A stretch of 42,597 bases of DNA from a virus, in IMG/VR virus record IMGVR_UViG_3300042691_031832, positions 1 to 42,597 of that record; one strand, given 5' to 3'. Position 1 is the first letter of the stretch; the number at the start of each line of letters is the position of its first letter. A program made the translations under genes and the position numbers. The notes beneath the pieces are model-generated. The model searched no databases. It was not told where the DNA came from and saw only the letters and a list, made by a program, of their open reading frames with translations. Positions 8 to 38,914 of this stretch are shown here, piece after piece.

Positions 8-1231
8 ATGAAGATCGAATGCACCATCCGCCGCAGTTCGCCGGTGGTCACTACCGCCCGCGTCCTGCAGATGAGCGGCATGTTCGACGTTCAACCGAGC
101 CCCGAGAGCGTGGTGGAGTGGCGGCACTCGTTCGATCTGCCCGAGCCCTGGAACATCGGCGTCATCGTCGGGCCGTCGGGCGCCGGCAAGACCACGCTGG
201 CCCGCGAGGCCTTCGGCGATCAGATCGTGAGCGGCTGGACCTGGCCGGCGGACAAGAGCCTGCTGGACGGCTTCCCGGCCGGCATGGGCGTCAAGGACGT
301 GGTCGGCCTGCTGTCTTCGGTGGGCTTCTCCAGCCCGCCGGCATGGCTGCGGCCCTTCCACGTCCTGAGCAACGGAGAGCAGTTCCGGGTGAACCTGGCC
401 CGCACCATGGCGGAAATGCCCGAGCTGGCGGTGGTGGACGAATTCTCCAGCGTGGTGGACCGCACCGTGGCCCGCATCGGCTCTGCCGCCTTGCAGAAGG
501 CCGTGCGTCGCCGCGGCGGCAAGCTGGTGGCGGTCACGTGCCACTATGACGTGCTCGACTGGCTGGAGCCGGACTGGGTCTATGAACCTCACACGGGGAA
601 GCTCGAAAGGGGGCGGCTTCGGCGACGGCCAAAGATCCAACTGGACATCCATCGCACAACTACCGCGGCGTGGCAGCTTTTCAAGGGACATCACTATCTG
701 AGCCGGGACCTGCACCGCGGCTCCCATTGCTTCGCCGCGACGGTGGAGGGCCGGCCGGCCGCGTTCTGTGCGGTACTTTCGTTTCCTCATGCCCAGCGTC
801 CGGGCTGGCGGGAACATCGCGTGGTGTGCCTGCCGGACTTCCAGGGCGTGGGCATCGGGGAGGCCCTGTCCAACTACGTGGCGGGCTTGTTCGCGGCGAG
901 CGGGAAGCCCTACTGGACGAAGACGAGCCACCCCGGGCACCGGGCGGCGAAAGCGAAGTCGCCGCAGTGGAGGACCCGATACGCGGGCTCTCTCTCACGA
1001 CCGATAGGCAGAACGAGCAGCACGGGAGGCTATGCGGGCTTGGCGATCGACAGGGCCACCTGGAGCTTTGAGTACACCGGACCCGCCAACCCCGTAGACG
1101 CTGCCGCCTTCGGTCTCACCTTCACGCCAGCCCCAGCTCCCGTGCGGTCGTTTCGGGCACGTCTACCCGAAAGAGGCCCGGCTGGCCGCGGAAGGCGAAC
1201 GGTTCGGCGATCCTCACCGGCTCTTCCATGA
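8..1231 (+). CDS. ABC-type ATPase fused to a GNAT acetyltransferase (COG2401-like)
   Basis: The 407-residue product joins two domains. The first is an ABC-type ATPase: Walker A GPSGAGKTT at residues 55-63, a signature-like LSNGEQFRV at 120-128, Walker B LAVVDEF at 140-146 and a switch histidine near 179. From about residue 215 a GNAT-like domain follows, with an acetyl-CoA loop resembling FQGVGIGEAL at 278-287. This order matches COG2401, a family of ABC ATPases fused to a predicted acetyltransferase whose substrate is unknown. There are no membrane segments, so it is not a transporter. The ATG lies 8 bases from the window edge and its promoter is not visible. The last 110 bases are antisense to the facing ASCH gene, and the basic tail after about residue 372 may be dispensable. 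Confidence 0.85.
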   Translation: MKIECTIRRSSPVVTTARVLQMSGMFDVQPSPESVVEWRHSFDLPEPWNIGVIVGPSGAGKTTLAREAFGDQIVSGWTWPADKSLLDGFPAGMGVKDVVGLLSSVGFSSPPAWLRPFHVLSNGEQFRVNLARTMAEMPELAVVDEFSSVVDRTVARIGSAALQKAVRRRGGKLVAVTCHYDVLDWLEPDWVYEPHTGKLERGRLRRRPKIQLDIHRTTTAAWQLFKGHHYLSRDLHRGSHCFAATVEGRPAAFCAVLSFPHAQRPGWREHRVVCLPDFQGVGIGEALSNYVAGLFAASGKPYWTKTSHPGHRAAKAKSPQWRTRYAGSLSRPIGRTSSTGGYAGLAIDRATWSFEYTGPANPVDAAAFGLTFTPAPAPVRSFRARLPERGPAGRGRRTVRRSSPALP

Positions 1232-1779: not shown

Positions 1780-1931
1780 TGGCGTTCGGCGTACTCGGCC
1801 AGGGCCTCCCTCATCACGTCAGCCGCCGGCATATTGCGACTGGCGGCCAGCTCCTGCAGGCAGTCGGCGGCCTCCGCGGTCAGGCGGAAGTTGATGATGC
1901 GTGTCAGCTTCAAGTGTCGAAAGGGCGACAT
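1626..1931 (-). CDS. ribbon-helix-helix (CopG/Arc-like) protein
   Basis: Residues 8-50 form a ribbon-helix-helix pattern: a strand INFRLT, then helices AEAADCLQELAASR and PAADVMREALAEYAERH. Such proteins dimerise and bind operators through the N-terminal strand. The ATG at 1931 has a GGAG site five bases upstream (reading leftward). The second half is glycine-, serine- and alanine-rich and lies antisense to the zinc-ribbon gene, so only the first half looks functional. The start lies inside the 3' end of the glutaminase gene, suggesting coupled translation. Possible roles are local repressor or antitoxin; no toxin partner is seen. Confidence 0.6.
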   Translation of the reverse strand: MSPFRHLKLTRIINFRLTAEAADCLQELAASRNMPAADVMREALAEYAERHQASACGAGGASSPSGVAGSNGLPSGPTANVNGRAIASPNMDAATVQTGQE

Positions 1932-2586
1932 GGAGTGCTCCGGTTCGGGTGAAAGTGTAGTCGGCCACGGTCGAATCGTTCACGTCGTAGACCTTGCCCA
2001 GGCCGCATCCCGCCAAGCGGGTGGCCAGGAACTTGGCATGGGGTGTATCGGCCACCTGCAGGGGATTGCCGCGCCGGGCGGCGATGATCCTGGAAGGGCC
2101 CGACCAGATGCCCAGAACGGCCAGGCAACCCTCGGTCATGTTCACGGCCCCGGCCAGCCTGCGGGCCCGGCTGCCGTCCAGCCGCTCCGCCAGGAGCCCG
2201 ATGGCTTCGCTGTCGCATTCGCTGGCGGTGGCGAGCCCGTGAGCGGCCACCAGGTCCTCGTAGTTGCGGACAATGCCGTTGTGGACCAAAAGCCCATCGT
2301 CGATCGGGTGCGGGTGGTTGTTGCGGTTGTCGCTGGGGCTGCCGTGTGTGGCCCAGCGAAGATGCCCGACCAGCATAACGCAGCCCGCCGCCCGCTTGAG
2401 CTGGTGCAGGTTGTCCGTGAACCGGCCCGGCCTCTTGAGGCTGCAGAGCTGGCCGGCCGCGTCCACCCAGGCGAGCCCGAAGGCGTGGGGCCCGCGGTCG
2501 ATGTTGGCGGCCACGATCCGCTCCAGGGTCTCCAGAGGGAAGGGCGAATCGGGCCGGCGGCGAATGTATCCGAAGATGCTGCACAT
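1819..2586 (-). CDS. class II glutamine amidotransferase (stand-alone GlmS-type glutaminase domain)
   Basis: A 255-residue protein that begins Met-Cys, giving the N-terminal cysteine nucleophile after Met removal. It keeps GlmS-family glutaminase landmarks: RWATHG at 78-83, HPH at 91-93, HNG at 102-104 and an ECDSE motif near 123-127. This domain hydrolyses glutamine and passes on ammonia. The sugar-isomerase (SIS) domains of GlmS are absent, so another protein must accept the ammonia; the amidoligase directly upstream is the obvious partner. A GGAG site eight bases before the ATG supports the start, and this SD region (GGAGTCAGTCA) is duplicated just upstream. The C-terminal 35 or so residues overlap the next gene and look non-conserved. 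Confidence 0.85.
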   Translation of the reverse strand: MCSIFGYIRRRPDSPFPLETLERIVAANIDRGPHAFGLAWVDAAGQLCSLKRPGRFTDNLHQLKRAAGCVMLVGHLRWATHGSPSDNRNNHPHPIDDGLLVHNGIVRNYEDLVAAHGLATASECDSEAIGLLAERLDGSRARRLAGAVNMTEGCLAVLGIWSGPSRIIAARRGNPLQVADTPHAKFLATRLAGCGLGKVYDVNDSTVADYTFTRTGALHVALSTLEADTHHQLPPDRGGRRLPAGAGRQSQYAGG

Positions 2587-2638
2587 GACTGACTCCTGTC
2601 CTGTTGACTGACTCCCCCGCCCCCCCCTTGGCCACCGG

Positions 2639-3541
2639 CTACAGGCCGGCGGCGATGGCCGAGTCGTATTTTTTCGCCAGCCGCATCAGCTCACGCTTGC
2701 TGGCGTTGAGGCTCGGGGCCCCGTCGGCCTGCAGAGCACCGAAGGCCACCGGCTGGCGGCCCCGGGTCCAGCCCAGCCCGTAGAACAGGCGGGCCATGTC
2801 GGTGGCACCGATCCCGCCGCGGCGGACGGGGCTGGTGGCGGCCACGGCCGGGGCATCCCATTCGGTTGCCCGGCGGCTGGTCATGGCCTTCTCAACCAGG
2901 CCCAGGTACATGCGGACATAGGCGACGATCTTGCCGAAGTTGAGGGTGCCGGGGGCGCCGCGGAATTCCACGGTCGGCTTGTTGGCGGTGAACAGGTTGG
3001 CCAGGTTGATGACGTGGTAGCGGTCGCCGGCGATGTTGCCCATGGCGGAGTAGGTGGTCACGTCGAACCGGAGGCCGCGGAAGGAATTCTTGATCGGCTT
3101 GCAGTAGTTGCCCCGCTCGCGGGCCAGGGTGCCGGTGGAGGCGAACAGGGCCGTCTGGAAGTTGGCGCCCAGGCAGACCAGGCGGCGGAGGGTCTCGGGG
3201 GTGCCCTGCCAGCCCACGTGGACGTGGAAGCCGCAGGTCCGATTGACCTTGGCGCCCCAGGCGGCCAGGGTGGCGAGCACGGCCTTAATCTGGCGGAGGC
3301 CATCGGCCCCGCGGAGCACCGGGGACACCACTTCGATCGGAGCATAGCCGGCCAGGTTCGGCACAATGCTGCCGTCGCGCTGGGCGTTCCAACCCTCGGG
3401 CATTCCCGGGATCTGGCGGCCGGCATGGTAGCTGCCGATCTGGACGTTCTCGGCGACCAGGGCGGCTACCGGAACGAAGCACTCGATTTCCACGCCGTAG
3501 GTCAGGGTCTCGGTCACGCTGTTGTTGTTGCTCTGCGGCAT
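2639..3541 (-). CDS. amidoligase (COOH-NH2 ligase, Amidoligase_2-like)
   Basis: A 300-residue protein with the layout of the Amidoligase_2 family (glutamine-synthetase/ATP-grasp-like fold): TYGVEIE at 14-20, a DGS at 56-58, IEVVSPVL at 69-76, CGFHVHVG at 103-110 and VEFRGAPGT at 191-199. These Glu/His/Arg clusters are the metal, ATP and acyl-phosphate residues of the family, which joins a carboxylate to an amine. The frame stays open 55 codons further upstream, but the ATG at 3541 is preferred because it has an AGGAAAGGA site and the family motifs begin just after it. It lies directly upstream of the glutaminase gene, with a promoter at 3579-3606. Substrate unknown; candidates are a peptide, a wall precursor or a small metabolite. 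Confidence 0.8.
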   Translation of the reverse strand: MPQSNNNSVTETLTYGVEIECFVPVAALVAENVQIGSYHAGRQIPGMPEGWNAQRDGSIVPNLAGYAPIEVVSPVLRGADGLRQIKAVLATLAAWGAKVNRTCGFHVHVGWQGTPETLRRLVCLGANFQTALFASTGTLARERGNYCKPIKNSFRGLRFDVTTYSAMGNIAGDRYHVINLANLFTANKPTVEFRGAPGTLNFGKIVAYVRMYLGLVEKAMTSRRATEWDAPAVAATSPVRRGGIGATDMARLFYGLGWTRGRQPVAFGALQADGAPSLNASKRELMRLAKKYDSAIAAGL

Positions 3542-3578
3542 CTTTCGTTCCTTTCCTGTGTCACTCAGTACGTAAGAC

Positions 3579-3606
3579 ATTATCGCACACGGGCGGAGAA
3601 AAACAA
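3579..3606 (-). promoter_or_regulatory. sigma70-like promoter for the amidoligase/glutaminase pair
   Basis: Reading leftward, TTGTTT (3606-3601), a 16-base spacer and GATAAT (3584-3579), inside an AT-rich island. The predicted RNA start is about 30 bases before the amidoligase ATG, leaving room for its ribosome binding site. A TTTGGAAA box on the plus strand at 3625-3632 resembles the box found at other promoters here. Confidence 0.5.
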
Positions 3607-5518: not shown

Positions 5519-7828
5519 CTAAGCTGGCATGTTGAAGAGAGACTTGGCCGACTCCTGCCGCTCCCGGGCGGCCCGCTCCAGATTGCGGGCGGCCACCTGG
5601 AAGTAGGCAGGCTTCAACTCGGACCCGATGAAACGCCGGCCCAGCTTGAGGGCGACGTATCCCTCGGAGCCGATCCCCGTAAAGGGCGAATAAACCAGGT
5701 CCCCGGGATTGGTCCACAGGTGAATGGCCCGCTCGATCACGTCCAGTTGCAGCGGGCAGATGTGTTTCTCGTCCCTGGCGTCCTTCGCAATCTGGTAGTT
5801 GAGGACGTTGGTCTGGTCAATGTCCATCCAGACCGGCGATGCGTACCGCTGCCAGACTTCGATCGACCACAGGCGGGCGTCCATGCCGCGGGGCGGGGGC
5901 TGCAGGCCCACGTAGCGGTCAAACCGCTCGCCGCCGGTGGTGACAGGACGCGGGAACTCGCCGGCTTCGGTCCACTTGCGGAAGGTAATCAGGTAGTCGG
6001 CCATGCCCTGGCGGCTGGCGGCCGAGTCCTTGCAGAGCTGTTTGTACAGCAGGCCGTGATTCTTGGTCCGCTGCATTTCAATGACGGGGTCTTTCCAGAT
6101 GGTGACGCGGCTGTGGTAGGTCCAGCCGTGCCGCTCGAAAGCGGCGATGATGGCCCCGGGGAAGTCGCGCAGACCGGCCGCCCCGTCGCGCCCCTTGTAG
6201 AGCGGAAGGTCCTTGCAGTGAACCGAGCACAGACGCCCGGGCACGGTGGCCCGGTACAGCTCGCCGATGAGGAACTCAAAGTGCCGCATGAACTCGGCAT
6301 CATCCTCGGCGTTGCCCATGTCGCGGACGCTGTCCGAGTAGATGTAGAGGTTCGAGAACGGCGGCGAGAAGACCGAAAAGTCCAGCGTGTCGGCTTCGAT
6401 CCGCCGGGCGTGTTCGCAGCAATCGTCCAGGTGAAGCTCCCAGCCGTCGCCGGTGGCCACCTGCCGATCAACGTCCATCCGCAGGGTGCGGACCTTGGCG
6501 AGCCCAGACAGTGACTCGGCCTTCATGGCTTCGATCATGGCCGCCTGCATCCGCTCGTGCTCCGCTTCCTTGTCCTGCACGGCCTTGAGCACGGCCCCCT
6601 CGGTGATGGCGGCCACGATATGCACGTCCACGGGCTTAGTCTGGCCGAACCGCCAGCAGCGGCGGACGGCCTGGTAGAACTGCTCAAAGCTGTAGGACAG
6701 CCCCACGAAAACCATCTGGTGGCAGCACTGCAGATTCAGACCCCACCCGCCGATCCTGGGCTTTGTCAGCAGCATCCGTGAACGGCCGAAGGCGAAGTCT
6801 TCCAGCCGGCCTGCCTTCAACTCCGGCGACTGTGACCCGCGGACCTCGACGGCCGCCGGCACCCGCTCGCGGATGGCGTCGGCTTCGTAGTCGGTGTTAC
6901 ACCAGATGAGCCACGTGCCGTCCGGGTCGGTGGCGACGATCCGGGCCACGGCGTCGGCCCGGTCGCCGGCGGTCATCCGCATTTCCCGGTGCATGCTGGT
7001 GGCGGTCAGCTTGCCGTCGCGGAAGATCTCGCCGTCGGCCGCCCCGGTCACAACGTCCACGTCCACGGGATGGTGGTGCATCCGCAGGGCCGGCAGGGCG
7101 AATCCTGCATCGTCATAGCCCAGGTCGGACGGCTTGGCGATGCACACCGCCCATGTGGCCACCCATCTCCAGTAGTCGGACTCGGCGTGGCCCTTGAGCC
7201 GATACCCGCCGGCCTGCATCGTGTCGTTGATGAACCAGCGGGAGATCATCTCGTTGGAGTCCATGATCCCCAGGAACTGGGCGTGGTTGCCAAGCTCCAG
7301 GTGGTCGTTGGGCGCCGGCGTCGCGGTGCAGCAAAGCCGGTAGGGCGTGCGGGAGAACGCTTCGATCAGGGCCTGCTTGGTCTTGCCCATGTAGCTCTTG
7401 AGGATGCCCGACTCATCCAGCACCACGCCGGCGAAGTGGCCGGTATCGAAGTGGGAGAGCATCTCATAGTTGGCGATGTTGACGCCCGGCCGCACGTCCT
7501 TTTGGGTCCGGCAGACCTGCACCGGCACGCCGAACTTCTGGCCTTCGGCTTCGGTCTGGCGGGCCACGGCAAGCGGGCAGAGGATGAGCACGTCGCCGCC
7601 GGTGTGGCGGTGGACGTTGGCCGCCCAGTCCAGTTGCATCAGCGTCTTGCCAAGCCCGCAGCCGGCGAAGATCGCCGCCCGGCCGCGCCGCAGGGCCCAG
7701 CGGACGATGTCTCTCTGGAACTGGAAGGCCTGGGGGTTGAGGGCATCTTCGGCCACGTCGAACCCGACGGCCGCCGCGGCCACCACGCGGGCCTGCAGAA
7801 AATCGTTGTACTCGTTGTTGTTGTTCAT
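5519..7828 (-). CDS. SF2 helicase (SNF2-like) fused to a DNA methyltransferase
   Basis: A 769-residue fusion. The N-terminal half is a superfamily 2 ATPase: Walker A AGCGLGKT at 55-62, Walker B VLDES at 136-140, motif III TATP at 168-171 and motif VI QAVRRCWRFGQ at 386-396, as in SNF2 translocases. The C-terminal third is a beta-class amino-methyltransferase: the catalytic motif SPPF at 488-491 comes before the SAM-binding motif SPFTGIGSEG at 714-723. SPPF is commoner in N4-cytosine enzymes than in N6-adenine ones, but the base cannot be settled by eye. No nuclease domain is visible, so a complete restriction system is not supported. It may translocate on phage DNA and methylate it as anti-restriction or for replication. 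A weak AAGGGT site precedes the ATG. Confidence 0.9.
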   Translation of the reverse strand: MNNNNEYNDFLQARVVAAAAVGFDVAEDALNPQAFQFQRDIVRWALRRGRAAIFAGCGLGKTLMQLDWAANVHRHTGGDVLILCPLAVARQTEAEGQKFGVPVQVCRTQKDVRPGVNIANYEMLSHFDTGHFAGVVLDESGILKSYMGKTKQALIEAFSRTPYRLCCTATPAPNDHLELGNHAQFLGIMDSNEMISRWFINDTMQAGGYRLKGHAESDYWRWVATWAVCIAKPSDLGYDDAGFALPALRMHHHPVDVDVVTGAADGEIFRDGKLTATSMHREMRMTAGDRADAVARIVATDPDGTWLIWCNTDYEADAIRERVPAAVEVRGSQSPELKAGRLEDFAFGRSRMLLTKPRIGGWGLNLQCCHQMVFVGLSYSFEQFYQAVRRCWRFGQTKPVDVHIVAAITEGAVLKAVQDKEAEHERMQAAMIEAMKAESLSGLAKVRTLRMDVDRQVATGDGWELHLDDCCEHARRIEADTLDFSVFSPPFSNLYIYSDSVRDMGNAEDDAEFMRHFEFLIGELYRATVPGRLCSVHCKDLPLYKGRDGAAGLRDFPGAIIAAFERHGWTYHSRVTIWKDPVIEMQRTKNHGLLYKQLCKDSAASRQGMADYLITFRKWTEAGEFPRPVTTGGERFDRYVGLQPPPRGMDARLWSIEVWQRYASPVWMDIDQTNVLNYQIAKDARDEKHICPLQLDVIERAIHLWTNPGDLVYSPFTGIGSEGYVALKLGRRFIGSELKPAYFQVAARNLERAARERQESAKSLFNMPA

Positions 7829-8271: not shown

Positions 8272-10230
8272 CTACGTTCCGAGCGGGGCGATGCGAACGG
8301 TGAACTTGCCGGAGGCGATGAGGGCCCGATCGGTGACGTTCCAGAGCTTGTAGAAGGCCGAGCGGGCGGCGTCCGAGTCGGGCGTGGTGATGGTCGCGGT
8401 GACTTGGTTGTTGCTCGCCCCGCCGATGACTACCCCGCCGTCCACCGTGTCCACCTGGAACAGGGCCGCGCCCTGCCCGTCATGGACCACGAAGCGGACC
8501 AGCTTGCCGGCCAGGCTGATCGGGTCGCCGTCGGCGTCGGCGTAGGCAAACACGAAAGCGGCCGTCCCGTTCTGGGGCATGGTCAGGTCAGCTATGGTGC
8601 CGCCCAGCGACGTGTAGAAGCCCGAGAGCTGGGTAGCGGCCAGCGGCGTGATGGTGCCGCCGGCGGCGCTCACGTCGCCGTCCAGGTGGGCCCACTGCTG
8701 GGCCAGCGTGGCGGCCCCGTTCACGGTGCCGAGCAAGGCGGAGATGATCGTGGCGGCCGAAGGCGGAGCGGTGTAGGACGATGCGAGTACCCAATTCCCC
8801 TTGCCGTCAAGGGCCCCTGCCGCGATGGCGTTGGACGTGATAGCCCCGTTGGCCAGTGTCATCGCCGAGCCGACCGCGGCGGGGGCGCCAGGCAGGTTGT
8901 CGGTCTTGGCTTTGACGGCGGCCACGGTGGACTCGCTGGCCGGCGATGCCGGCAGGTTGTCGGTCTTGGCTTTGATGGCAAAGGCCTGGTCGTTCACGCC
9001 CTCCATGACCGAATTGGCATAGAGCACCTCGAACCCGAAGCTGGTAATCCCGAGGGGCTCGACGGGGTCGTCCAGGTCGTACCCGAAAACATCAATGGTG
9101 AGCCGGCCATGATGCTGGCGGCCTTCGCCGGTCCACTCCACCACGCCCTGGGCCTCGGCGGCATCATCGAAGCTGTTGGCCGCGTCCGAGAAGATCAGAA
9201 ATGGATAGTCGCCCGCGGTCACGATGTCGGTGGGCATGTCGCCGCGGTAGACTCCCGTGGCGGCGGTCTCGGTCAACGGCAGTAGGCAGTCGGCGAAGAC
9301 CGCCTCGTCCAGGTCCACCCATCCGGCGACGGCGGCAGTCTTCCATACCTGGCTGGTGGCCGGGTTGAAGATGACAGCCGACAGAGTGCGGCCGCTGCGG
9401 TCATGGTGTAGAAGATCAGCCATGGCAATGTTCCTCCACGCTCCCAGACCGCGTTCCCATGTCGGCGTGGGCTCGGCCACGAGATCGAAGGCGGTCAGGT
9501 CCAGTTCGGTGAGCTGGTAGCCGCCGCCCAGGGCGGTCATCGCGGCGTTGACGGCGGTCACGTGCCAGTGCAGCGACGTGCCCGACAGCGGGCTGGTGGC
9601 CACGCCGAGCAGGACTAGTTCCTCGTTGACCAGCAGACACCAGGGATTGCCGCTGTCGCCGCCGATCAGCGCTTCGTAGAACGCCAGCCGCGTGGCATCG
9701 GTCGGCACCTGGAAGCGGACTTCCGAGTTGAGGGCCCACAGGTCCACCACCAGAGCCTTTTCCTCGTAGTCGAGCGACAGAGCCGGAATGCCCGAGCCCC
9801 AGCGGGAAATGTAGTCCCGCCAGTCGGCCGGCAGGACCTTGGCAAAGCCGATGCCAGCCGGCACGTCGCTGTCGAGCAAAAAGAGCGACAGGTCGCCGGC
9901 TGGCGTTGCGGTGGCCGTGATGGTCCGGTTGACCACCGTCCCGTCCATGGCCACGAAGCGGACCGTGGCCCCCACCGGCAGGGCGAAGTGGGCGGCACAG
10001 ATGCCGTGCCGTGGCGAGACCAGGATACCCGCCTTGACGTGGGCGGCGTTGGAGTTCCACGGGCTCAGCGGCGTGGCATCGACGGCTGACCCTTGGGCCA
10101 GCCAGCAGGTTGCCGAGCGGACATACTCGGGCGTGGTGTGGTCCTGCAGGGAGAAGATGGGCTTGTCGGCCCCGATCGCGGCGATGCGGTCGTCGATCTG
10201 GGCGGCACAATGTTGGGCGAGCGTGGCCAT
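8272..10230 (-). CDS. tail-fibre-like structural protein with an N-terminal trypsin-like peptidase domain
   Basis: A 652-residue protein. Residues about 65-215 look like a chymotrypsin/trypsin-fold peptidase with a plausible triad: His81 in CAAH, Asp113 in AGDLSLFLL, and Ser193 in GGDSGNP, followed by a strand LVLLGVATS as after the serine in S1 enzymes. The middle is beta-rich. At 419-450 a short motif ending KAKTDNLP occurs twice, a feature common in phage tail-tip and fibre proteins. The C-terminal 150 residues are beta-rich and end in a BppU-like immunoglobulin-type pattern. It is the last gene of the late region, where receptor-binding proteins are usual. The peptidase may mature the fibre or cut host surface proteins. 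No strong ribosome site was seen at the ATG. Confidence 0.75.
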   Translation of the reverse strand: MATLAQHCAAQIDDRIAAIGADKPIFSLQDHTTPEYVRSATCWLAQGSAVDATPLSPWNSNAAHVKAGILVSPRHGICAAHFALPVGATVRFVAMDGTVVNRTITATATPAGDLSLFLLDSDVPAGIGFAKVLPADWRDYISRWGSGIPALSLDYEEKALVVDLWALNSEVRFQVPTDATRLAFYEALIGGDSGNPWCLLVNEELVLLGVATSPLSGTSLHWHVTAVNAAMTALGGGYQLTELDLTAFDLVAEPTPTWERGLGAWRNIAMADLLHHDRSGRTLSAVIFNPATSQVWKTAAVAGWVDLDEAVFADCLLPLTETAATGVYRGDMPTDIVTAGDYPFLIFSDAANSFDDAAEAQGVVEWTGEGRQHHGRLTIDVFGYDLDDPVEPLGITSFGFEVLYANSVMEGVNDQAFAIKAKTDNLPASPASESTVAAVKAKTDNLPGAPAAVGSAMTLANGAITSNAIAAGALDGKGNWVLASSYTAPPSAATIISALLGTVNGAATLAQQWAHLDGDVSAAGGTITPLAATQLSGFYTSLGGTIADLTMPQNGTAAFVFAYADADGDPISLAGKLVRFVVHDGQGAALFQVDTVDGGVVIGGASNNQVTATITTPDSDAARSAFYKLWNVTDRALIASGKFTVRIAPLGT

Positions 10231-36441: not shown

Positions 36442-37815
36442 TTACCCGCCAAGCGTGGGCAACCGCAGAGCCCCGACGCCGGCAATGGCCCGCCGCTCGC
36501 CGAACTGGGCGTAGCAGTAGTAGCGGAGGGCCGCCAGGCAGTGGTACGGGGCCAGTTGCCGCCGGTCGGGCCAGGGGGCGGTCCGGCAGTCTTCGATCAG
36601 CCGGCGGGCCTGGGGCGCCACAAGCAGCCGCACTTCGCCGGCGGCCGATGAGCAGCGGCAGCGGACGGCGTTCAGACTGTCCTTGACCAGCGGATTGCCG
36701 TCCAGAACGCACCACTCCACAGGCTCGCCGCGCATGTACTGCCGCAGGATGTCGTAGTCACTCACGCCGATGTTGGAGTGCCGGTTGGCCCCGGCGGCGT
36801 CGCCGAAGATCCGAATACGCCGCGGCGCCCACCCGGCCGTGGCCAGTGCCCGGCGGAAGGCCTCCACCTGGGCGGGAACGCTGCCGTCGGTGTCCACCAC
36901 CACCTCCCGCAGCACGCGGACAACGCCGCGGTAGGTCTGGCACAACAGGGCCGCCGCCGGCGTTACCCCGAAGTCCAGGCTCCAGTCCAGCGGCAGCTCC
37001 GGCCAGAACTCGCCGGCCCTTTCGTCCACGTGGACCATCCGATCAAACGTGGGTAGGGCCTTGCCGCCGCTGCGGACGAACTGACCGCCCAGCTCCTGCT
37101 CAAACTCCAGCGGGTCCATCTCCCGCCGCATGGCCTCCACCTCGGAAGCCTCGATGATGTCTGAGCTGGTCCAGTGAAAAGAGCATATGTCCGGGTCGCC
37201 GTGCGGCCAGTCCAGGCCGACCTCGTAAAGCTCTTCGTACTCGGCCTGGTTGCGGCCGTTCTCATCGGGCACGCCGATCAGGTCGCACTCGCCGCGGCGC
37301 CCGAGCGTCGCCAGGGCGGGGCGGACATGGCGGGCGAAGCATCGCGGCGGGCAGTCGGCCAGCTCGTCTATGCCGATGAAGTCCCACGGCACGCCCTCGA
37401 TTCGCCGCGGCCGATCGAAGCCGAACACGCGGACGCTGGCCCCCCACCGCGTCGTAATCTGCATGTCGCTCTCGCGGACGGAGGCTATCCAGTGCTCGGG
37501 GATCAGCGCCTTCAAGTCATCCCAGAAGATATCCTTGGCCTGCCCGTAGGTCGGTGCCGCCAGGGCGATCTTCACCGCCCACGGCTTCCGCTGGGCCAGC
37601 TTCAAGGCCGCCTTCCGCTTGAGGATCTCCGTCTTCCCGGAGCGGCGGCCGGATGGGTTGAGCTTGATCCGGGCCGGGTGCCATGCGAAGGCGGCCTGCC
37701 CGCTGTGGGGCTTGAGCGGCGTCCACCGCGGCGTCAAGCGGAGCGTCCGGCCGGCGGCGGGCGACAACTCGGGTTGTGGTGGGCACAACTCAGGTTGTGG
37801 CAGCCCCTCGCTCAC
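36442..37815 (-). CDS. terL: terminase large subunit
   Basis: A 457-residue packaging motor. Walker A PSGRRSGKT at 54-62, Walker B WDFIGIDE at 144-151 (catalytic Glu151), and a nuclease domain with SLDFG at 279-283 and FGDAAGANR at 338-345, the acidic residues of the RNase-H-like site. The start is GTG, overlapping the upstream stop as GTGA. It cuts concatemers and pumps DNA into the procapsid through the portal encoded downstream. Confidence 0.9.
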   Translation of the reverse strand: MSEGLPQPELCPPQPELSPAAGRTLRLTPRWTPLKPHSGQAAFAWHPARIKLNPSGRRSGKTEILKRKAALKLAQRKPWAVKIALAAPTYGQAKDIFWDDLKALIPEHWIASVRESDMQITTRWGASVRVFGFDRPRRIEGVPWDFIGIDELADCPPRCFARHVRPALATLGRRGECDLIGVPDENGRNQAEYEELYEVGLDWPHGDPDICSFHWTSSDIIEASEVEAMRREMDPLEFEQELGGQFVRSGGKALPTFDRMVHVDERAGEFWPELPLDWSLDFGVTPAAALLCQTYRGVVRVLREVVVDTDGSVPAQVEAFRRALATAGWAPRRIRIFGDAAGANRHSNIGVSDYDILRQYMRGEPVEWCVLDGNPLVKDSLNAVRCRCSSAAGEVRLLVAPQARRLIEDCRTAPWPDRRQLAPYHCLAALRYYCYAQFGERRAIAGVGALRLPTLGG

Positions 37816-38204
37816 TGCCGCCTCCGGTAGCCCAGGTCCACGATGCGGCCGGCCAGGGCCTCCACCAGGGCCTCCACGGCGTTGCCGTACATGCGGCGGG
37901 CCATCCGCCGGGCCTCCCGCGGCAGCGACGGCAGAAGCTCATCCTCCACGGCCTGGTCAACGCGGGCGTGGACGATGTGCAGCAGCTCATGGACGATGGT
38001 CACCCGCCACTCCCTGCTGTCTTCGGCATCGGTCCGGAGCGTCACCTTCGCCCGCCGGTTGTTGCAGTCGAACTCCACGGACGCCAGGTTGCCGCTTAAC
38101 TCTCCCGGCTCCCGGTCCATGGCCACGTCAATGTCCCAGGCGTCAAGCCCCAGGTCGGCGGCGGCGTGGTGAATGAACCTCTCGGCCCATTGTGGAAGCT
38201 GCAT
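37812..38204 (-). CDS. HExxH metalloprotease-like protein, 130 aa
   Basis: A protein with VTIVHELLHIVH at residues 68-79: His72, Glu73 and His76 form a zincin HExxH motif in a helix, after a beta strand (RAKVTLRTD). The overall size and motif resemble small zinc metalloproteases. The ATG at 38204 has a GAGGTG site; the longer open frame is not used. It lies between the small and large terminase genes, an unusual position. It may process a capsid or packaging protein, or act on the host; a structural zincin remnant is possible. Confidence 0.65.
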   Translation of the reverse strand: MQLPQWAERFIHHAAADLGLDAWDIDVAMDREPGELSGNLASVEFDCNNRRAKVTLRTDAEDSREWRVTIVHELLHIVHARVDQAVEDELLPSLPREARRMARRMYGNAVEALVEALAGRIVDLGYRRRQ

Positions 38205-38212
38205 GGCACACC

Positions 38213-38914
38213 TCACGGCCGGGGAATGGTTGCTGGTCGCTTGAGGGCAGACTCTCCGGCGGCGGCTTCGCCTCCTGCCCTCATGCCGTCGGGCAGCTTC
38301 GCCGGGTCGGCCGGCATGTCCGGCATGGCGCCGGCCGGCAGGGCGTCGGCCACTTGCCCGGTAGTGTGAAACAGTCCCTCTGCCGCCCCGGTCTTGGGCG
38401 GCTCGGCGATCTGAAGCGGCATCTCCGCGGCGCCGCGGGCCAGCTCGCGGGCGATGTTCAACAGGGCGGCCACGTCGGCCAGCTTCCATCGCATCGGCTC
38501 ATAGATGATGAGGGTCCGCCCCTCGGGGTCTCTCTTCTCAACCTTGCGGGCCAGGCCGAAGGACAGCATCTTCCGGGCCTTCTCGACCAGCAGGCCCCGC
38601 AGCTCCCATTCGGACTGCCGCCACTCTTCCCTCCGCTTGGCCCAGTCCACCGCAACCGCCTCGATGGCCCGCTGCCGGCCGGAGTCCATGGCCGCGGCGT
38701 TGGAGTCATCCCAGGCCCGGGCACGGATCGGCCAGCGGTAACGAGCGGACCACCGCGTCCACCAGCCCGGGGCGTTACCTTTTTCTCGCCGCGTGTGTGC
38801 GCGGTAGGCCTTGTGCAAGCTCCGCTCCGGCCCCAGGGCCAGGTAACAGGCGAACGCGGCAAATGCCTTGCCTGTCTCATCATCCAGTTGATGCCATGGC
38901 TGCCGCTCGACCAT
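38213..38914 (-). CDS. probable terminase small subunit, 233 aa
   Basis: A helical protein with an N-terminal region rich in basic and aromatic residues (LDDETGKAFAAFACYLALGPERSLHKAYRAHT), then a central coiled region and a flexible proline/alanine tail. Small terminases bind pac/cos sites through an N-terminal helix-turn-helix and oligomerise through such a central domain. The assignment rests on position just before the large subunit and helical layout; no ribosome site is clear before the ATG. Confidence 0.6.
   Translation of the reverse strand: MVERQPWHQLDDETGKAFAAFACYLALGPERSLHKAYRAHTRREKGNAPGWWTRWSARYRWPIRARAWDDSNAAAMDSGRQRAIEAVAVDWAKRREEWRQSEWELRGLLVEKARKMLSFGLARKVEKRDPEGRTLIIYEPMRWKLADVAALLNIARELARGAAEMPLQIAEPPKTGAAEGLFHTTGQVADALPAGAMPDMPADPAKLPDGMRAGGEAAAGESALKRPATIPRP

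Follow-up and report, generated by a model that had tools for sequence, protein, structure and literature searches.

What reaction does a phage encode when an amidoligase gene is followed directly by a stand-alone glutaminase gene? We address this for a 42,597 bp stretch of DNA (the window), which is the entire IMG/VR virus record IMGVR_UViG_3300042691_031832 and possibly a fragment, by combining profile searches, structure models and the gene neighbourhoods of viral and cellular relatives. The reading we favour, at a probability of about one half, is that this gene pair of a tailed phage encodes a compact module for amidation, in which the glutaminase passes ammonia to a ligase of the glutamine synthetase (GS) fold.

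A ligase and a glutaminase side by side

The record carries matches to both terminase subunits and therefore belongs to a tailed phage. The amidoligase lies 52 bp upstream of the glutaminase, and both were recovered on the minus strand at the coordinates where the first-pass annotation, made from the sequence alone, had placed them. The features that define the locus are as follows.

37815-36442, minus strand: terminase large subunit, marking a tailed phage
near 38914-38213: terminase small-subunit match
4618-3755, minus strand: DUF5131 gene, upstream of the amidoligase
3579-3606, minus strand: weak, sub-threshold promoter-like TTGTTT-N16-GATAAT, TG-extended, some 38 nt ahead of the amidoligase ATG
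3548-3557, minus strand: ribosome-binding-like AGGAAAGGAA, before the amidoligase ATG
2639-3541, minus strand: amidoligase of the GS fold (PF12224), 300 aa, ATG at 3541 and stop at 2639
2593-2597, minus strand: ribosome-binding-like AGGAG, 6 nt before the glutaminase ATG
1819-2586, minus strand: stand-alone GlmS-type class II glutaminase (PF13522), 255 aa, ATG at 2586 and stop at 1819
1931-1626, minus strand: ribbon-helix-helix-like short ORF downstream of the glutaminase, overlapping its poorly conserved tail in another frame
1526-1122, minus strand: ASCH-domain ORF, beyond the ribbon-helix-helix-like ORF

The promoter of its own that had been proposed for the pair is doubtful: a consensus scan found no site above threshold, and the sub-threshold element listed here was read from the sequence itself.

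Elsewhere in the window, an ORF at 8-1231 (plus strand, opposite to the pair) fuses an ABC-type ATPase to a GNAT acetyltransferase (PHROG 11143, function unknown, E = 1e-110), and a 769-aa ORF at 5519-7828 (minus strand) joins SNF2-type helicase and N6/N4 DNA methylase domains. An ORF that adjoins the terminase large subunit (37815-38489, minus strand) contains VHELLH, a HExxH metallopeptidase-like motif, and matches neither Pfam nor the HExxH gene family described below. Most ORFs of the structural region have no Pfam match, no RNA families were found near the two genes and no tRNAs in the window, and PADLOC gave no hit for either the amidoligase or the glutaminase.

The amidoligase aligns with positions 2-244 of the 245 in PF12224 (E = 9.7e-23, 81.7 bits against a cut-off of 22) and matches PHROG 2443, 'amidoligase enzyme', at E = 2.5e-29; a search of its family profile against PDB sequences returned nothing at E values up to 1. 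Its structure model (pLDDT 90.5) has as best solved matches a predicted glutathione synthase from Salmonella, YbdK, glutamine synthetases and the Pup ligase PafA, at modest Foldseek TM-scores of about 0.3-0.5. At this level of structural similarity the protein groups with the glutamine synthetase fold, and it has GS-type catalytic residues: the pattern E18, E20, E70, N100-x-x-x-G104-x-H106-x-H108, R174, N179 and E192-F-R194 is invariant or nearly so among relatives paired with a glutaminase, with E18, E20, E70, H106, E192 and R194 invariant. A C-terminal segment (residues ~243-293, ending in RLAKKYD) is present throughout the phage/planctomycete group of amidoligases and missing from all nine distant cellular sequences compared; this clade-specific segment could be a partner-binding site.

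The glutaminase matches PF13522 above the cut-off (E = 4.8e-8), and its family profile finds E. coli GlmS in the PDB at 9.7e-29, making GlmS its closest sequence relative at about 30% identity. The structure model (pLDDT 87.3) matches GlmS, PurF and EgtC, the first two of which are known ammonia-channelling enzymes; EgtC has no sequence match to the glutaminase at E ≤ 0.001. Cys2, Arg77, Thr80, Asn103, Gly104 and Asp125, which correspond to Cys1, Arg73, Thr76, Asn98, Gly99 and Asp123 in the established numbering of E. coli GlmS, are all present and are kept in essentially all of 82 distinct relatives. Together they provide the class II signature of an N-terminal cysteine, an arginine for the glutamine carboxylate, an Asn-Gly oxyanion pair and an aspartate for the amino group, so the full active site claimed in the first-pass annotation holds for every catalytic and glutamine-binding residue. 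In 74 of the 82 the gate position of the Q-loop holds an aromatic residue (W, Y or F).

Conservation and confident modelling extend only over the first ~214-220 residues of the glutaminase; the last ~35 are unconserved, modelled with low confidence and overlapped by the ORF at 1931-1626. Unlike GlmS, the protein has no C-terminal SIS isomerase domains: the ORF stops after the glutaminase fold, and no SIS match was found anywhere in the record, with positive controls in 14 of 14 genomes, in agreement with the earlier statement that an acceptor domain is missing.

Conservation of the pair in viruses and cells

Viral contigs were searched with both proteins individually and with profiles, and the loci were combined with those from a set holding one genome for every GTDB species. 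Pairing was counted over the non-redundant amidoligase loci that have 2.5 kb or more of downstream sequence, 90 in number. A glutaminase of the same family lies within the limits used in 64 of these and just outside them in two more (L213 and L235), while in L144, L168 and L171 the amidoligase is followed by a different class II glutaminase subtype. In all, about 69 of the 90 are followed closely, on the same strand, by a class II glutaminase, and the pairing is thus not due to chance. Glutaminase-signature ORFs at amidoligase-anchored loci lie less than 1 kb downstream and on the same strand in 60 of 61 viral and all 41 cellular cases, and the gap from stop to ATG is often merely 15-20 bp. 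The same order recurs in Bacteroidota, Nitrospirota and one archaeal MAG; in Bacteroidales genomes the amidoligase is followed by a GATase_4-like glutaminase of about 175 aa.

Co-occurrence in relatives, on which the first-pass annotation had staked its proposal, is therefore frequent, and its idea of a two-gene unit holds up well. Judged from these genome comparisons, the conserved order, strand and spacing strongly support a functional unit, maintained across widely diverged relatives, and the swap of one glutaminase subtype for another in an unchanged gene order is strong evidence of joint function. No natural fusions of the two proteins were noticed; overlapping hits sat in separate frames. 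One planctomycete contig (L037) carries two amidoligase copies within 4 kb (5941-6843 and 8929-9858), with a glutaminase after the second only.

Loci that lack a partner fall into three groups on the amidoligase tree: a clade of 17 distinct loci, and two pairs, L035/L038 and L040/L050. A whole-record search, run without a positive control, detected no glutaminase in members of the 17-locus clade, and these amidoligases retain the core ligase residues. In this clade (L132, L140, L149 and 14 related loci) H108 is replaced by T or S and T190 by R. Loss of H108, T or S in 17 of 17, was considered as an independent correlate of glutaminase loss and rejected, because the sister locus L228 has the same changes yet keeps its glutaminase, and because L035/L038 and L040/L050 have no glutaminase yet keep H108.

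A third ORF of about 150-200 aa sits between the two genes or just behind them at 23 of the 90 loci, all but one of which have the glutaminase. Its family has no Pfam match above the cut-off, and PDB searches gave nothing useful. The consensus contains LSVVTYLHEFAHA-G-DER-ACRWSINLFRRCFPRSF and carries an HExxH motif of the zincin-like kind, which about half of the members preserve intact and the others have in degenerate form. Examples are the following, with about 20 more loci:

L114, 3913-4359: third HExxH gene
L210, 7482-7979: third HExxH gene
L033, 1530-2123: third HExxH gene

A scan for this family recovered 28 viral loci, 17 of them with a profile-matching amidoligase; the family also occurs in phages without an amidoligase, such as L269 and L273. 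The gene is usual in relatives within the window's own group and marks the amidoligases closest to that of the window, but neither the window nor L115 has it: the best match in the window (E = 0.077) is to another ORF, and other HExxH strings there, considered as candidates, sit in unrelated ORFs. A gamma-glutamyl cyclotransferase is found in a few loci, and between both genes in L009 and L199.

The closest cellular relatives (L033-L051) come nearly all from MAGs of Planctomycetota, with one exception by record title; a planctomycete host is likely for the window's phage. Only one of 294 sampled planctomycete genomes, the centre genome, matches both profiles strongly, so that the pair behaves as an accessory of viruses or mobile elements.

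Related systems

Neighbourhoods of the kind described by Iyer et al. are reported to place a class II glutamine amidotransferase after a PF12224 ligase on the same strand, which is the order seen here; the window differs in holding only two genes. As summarised in later papers, these neighbourhoods of Amidoligase_2 (PF12224) and glutamine amidotransferases are the usual source of functional prediction (Iyer et al. 2009, via PMC10580990 and PMC11318856). The pair has also been reported from LUZ24-like phages (PMC3890496, PMC3517423), from RIO1-like podoviruses as part of a 'peptidoglycan modification cassette' (PMC5498523) that phiEco32/LUZ24-type phages share (PMC3890496), from OM43 phages (PMC10580990) and from the planctomycete phage ZRK32, which has a cultured host (eLife 2024, PMC10945688).

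In the RIO1/phiEco32/LUZ24 cassettes, too, the glutamine amidotransferase directly follows the amidoligase (gp18-gp19 in LUZ24), and they additionally contain a COOH-NH2 ligase, a RimK-type ATP-grasp protein and a gamma-glutamyl cyclotransferase. On inspection, LUZ24 has a COOH-NH2 ligase, an amidoligase, a glutaminase-containing protein, a RimK-type ligase and a cyclotransferase within seven genes, although its gp18 has diverged too far for a match to the profile built on the amidoligase of the window. By comparison, the window carries a cassette reduced to two genes: a RimK-like ATP-grasp (PF08443 only; 13 of 14 controls positive) and a gamma-glutamyl cyclotransferase (PF06094; 9 of 14 controls positive) were not found in the record, which may be incomplete, and the COOH-NH2 ligase profile (PF14395) had zero matches both there and in the control genomes. 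ZRK32 resembles the window, whose host is also a likely planctomycete, in having amidoligase and glutamine amidotransferase genes, a likeness of annotation, and differs in having glutathione synthase and cyclotransferase genes as well.

The pairing itself is genuine and widespread among phages and bacteria alike, though already described, including in a planctomycete phage, so that the first-pass proposal stands for the two-gene unit and falls short on a separate promoter, for which no site passed the threshold, and on novelty for phages. Although annotation of the pair is wide, the cited phage literature holds no biochemical test of it.

Two further systems bear on its chemistry. In ergothioneine synthesis, EgtA and EgtC combine a GS-fold ligase with a cysteine hydrolase of the class II fold; unlike the proposed glutaminase, to which it has no sequence match, EgtC takes off a gamma-glutamyl group rather than supplying ammonia. 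MurT/GatD unites a Mur-ligase fold with a class I glutaminase, and its sequences are unrelated to those of the window pair. The two-gene logic of ligase and glutaminase is nevertheless the same, and the system is reported to amidate a wall peptide carboxylate (PMC3267633).

Proposed amide formation and its alternatives

In the reaction we propose, the ligase would spend ATP on activating a carboxylate in the form of an acyl-phosphate, as in glutamine synthetase and its relatives, the N-terminal cysteine of the glutaminase would hydrolyse glutamine, and the ammonia would be handed over within a complex to give a primary amide. The intact glutaminase site and the GS-fold motifs of the ligase fit such glutamine-dependent amide formation, and the closeness to GlmS together with the aromatic gate residue favours a true glutaminase. 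Least firmly, the substrate may be a peptide or gamma-glutamyl carboxylate, most likely of a host cell-wall peptide or precursor, and modifying it during infection might affect wall metabolism or keep competing phages out. Neighbouring genes in relatives, the cyclotransferase and the peptidase-like gene, favour gamma-glutamyl or peptide chemistry, with which a supply of ammonia can be compatible within one pathway. An extended scheme, in which a dedicated class II glutaminase feeds the GS-fold ligase in a complex, planctomycete phages amidate carboxylates of the host wall or of peptides and the HExxH protein joins the pathway in most relatives, seems to us rather doubtful as a whole.

Several observations count against ammonia transfer. 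Enzymes of the GS fold normally work with free ammonia or an amine and have no need of a glutaminase, the 17-locus clade keeps its core ligase residues in the absence of one, and the cyclotransferase and HExxH genes of related cassettes are just as well suited to cleaving gamma-glutamyl or peptide bonds. The main rival, which we consider possible but less probable, is a ligase coupled to a hydrolase of gamma-glutamyl or isopeptide bonds that would trim or recycle the ligase product or the host wall and feed no ammonia; EgtC acting after EgtA is a precedent. EgtC as a structural match, the cyclotransferase in the cassettes of relatives and of LUZ24, the peptidase-like HExxH gene of the window's group and a podovirus study that places the phage glutamine amidotransferase under peptidoglycan degradation (PMC5498523) all suit this view, against which stand the greater sequence similarity to GlmS, the retained gate residue and the failure of EgtC to match by sequence.

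For ZRK32 it was proposed that both annotated genes boost nitrogen assimilation (PMC10945688), and two separate auxiliary metabolic genes acting on glutamine and glutamate turnover during infection would be the corresponding reading here. We regard it as unlikely, since tight order, spacing and subtype replacement indicate a joint reaction, and the ZRK32 evidence consists of whole-phage growth data with no enzyme tests (PMC10945688). We consider it very improbable that a nucleotide or DNA base is what the pair modifies, as amidotransferases of 7-deazaguanine pathways do. The nearby helicase-methylase and ABC-ATPase/GNAT fusions and the presence of LUZ24-like and other Pseudomonas phages among the distant glutaminase matches point that way; however, QueC is unmatched in the record (12 of 14 controls positive), and these neighbours were seen beside the pair in the window itself.

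With neither cyclotransferase nor RimK, the two-gene version offers a simpler target for defining the reaction and its substrate. If the glutaminase feeds the ligase, the pair would be a case of a GS-fold ligase that cooperates with a glutaminase; if gamma-glutamyl bonds are hydrolysed instead, many phage 'glutamine amidotransferase' genes would be misnamed.
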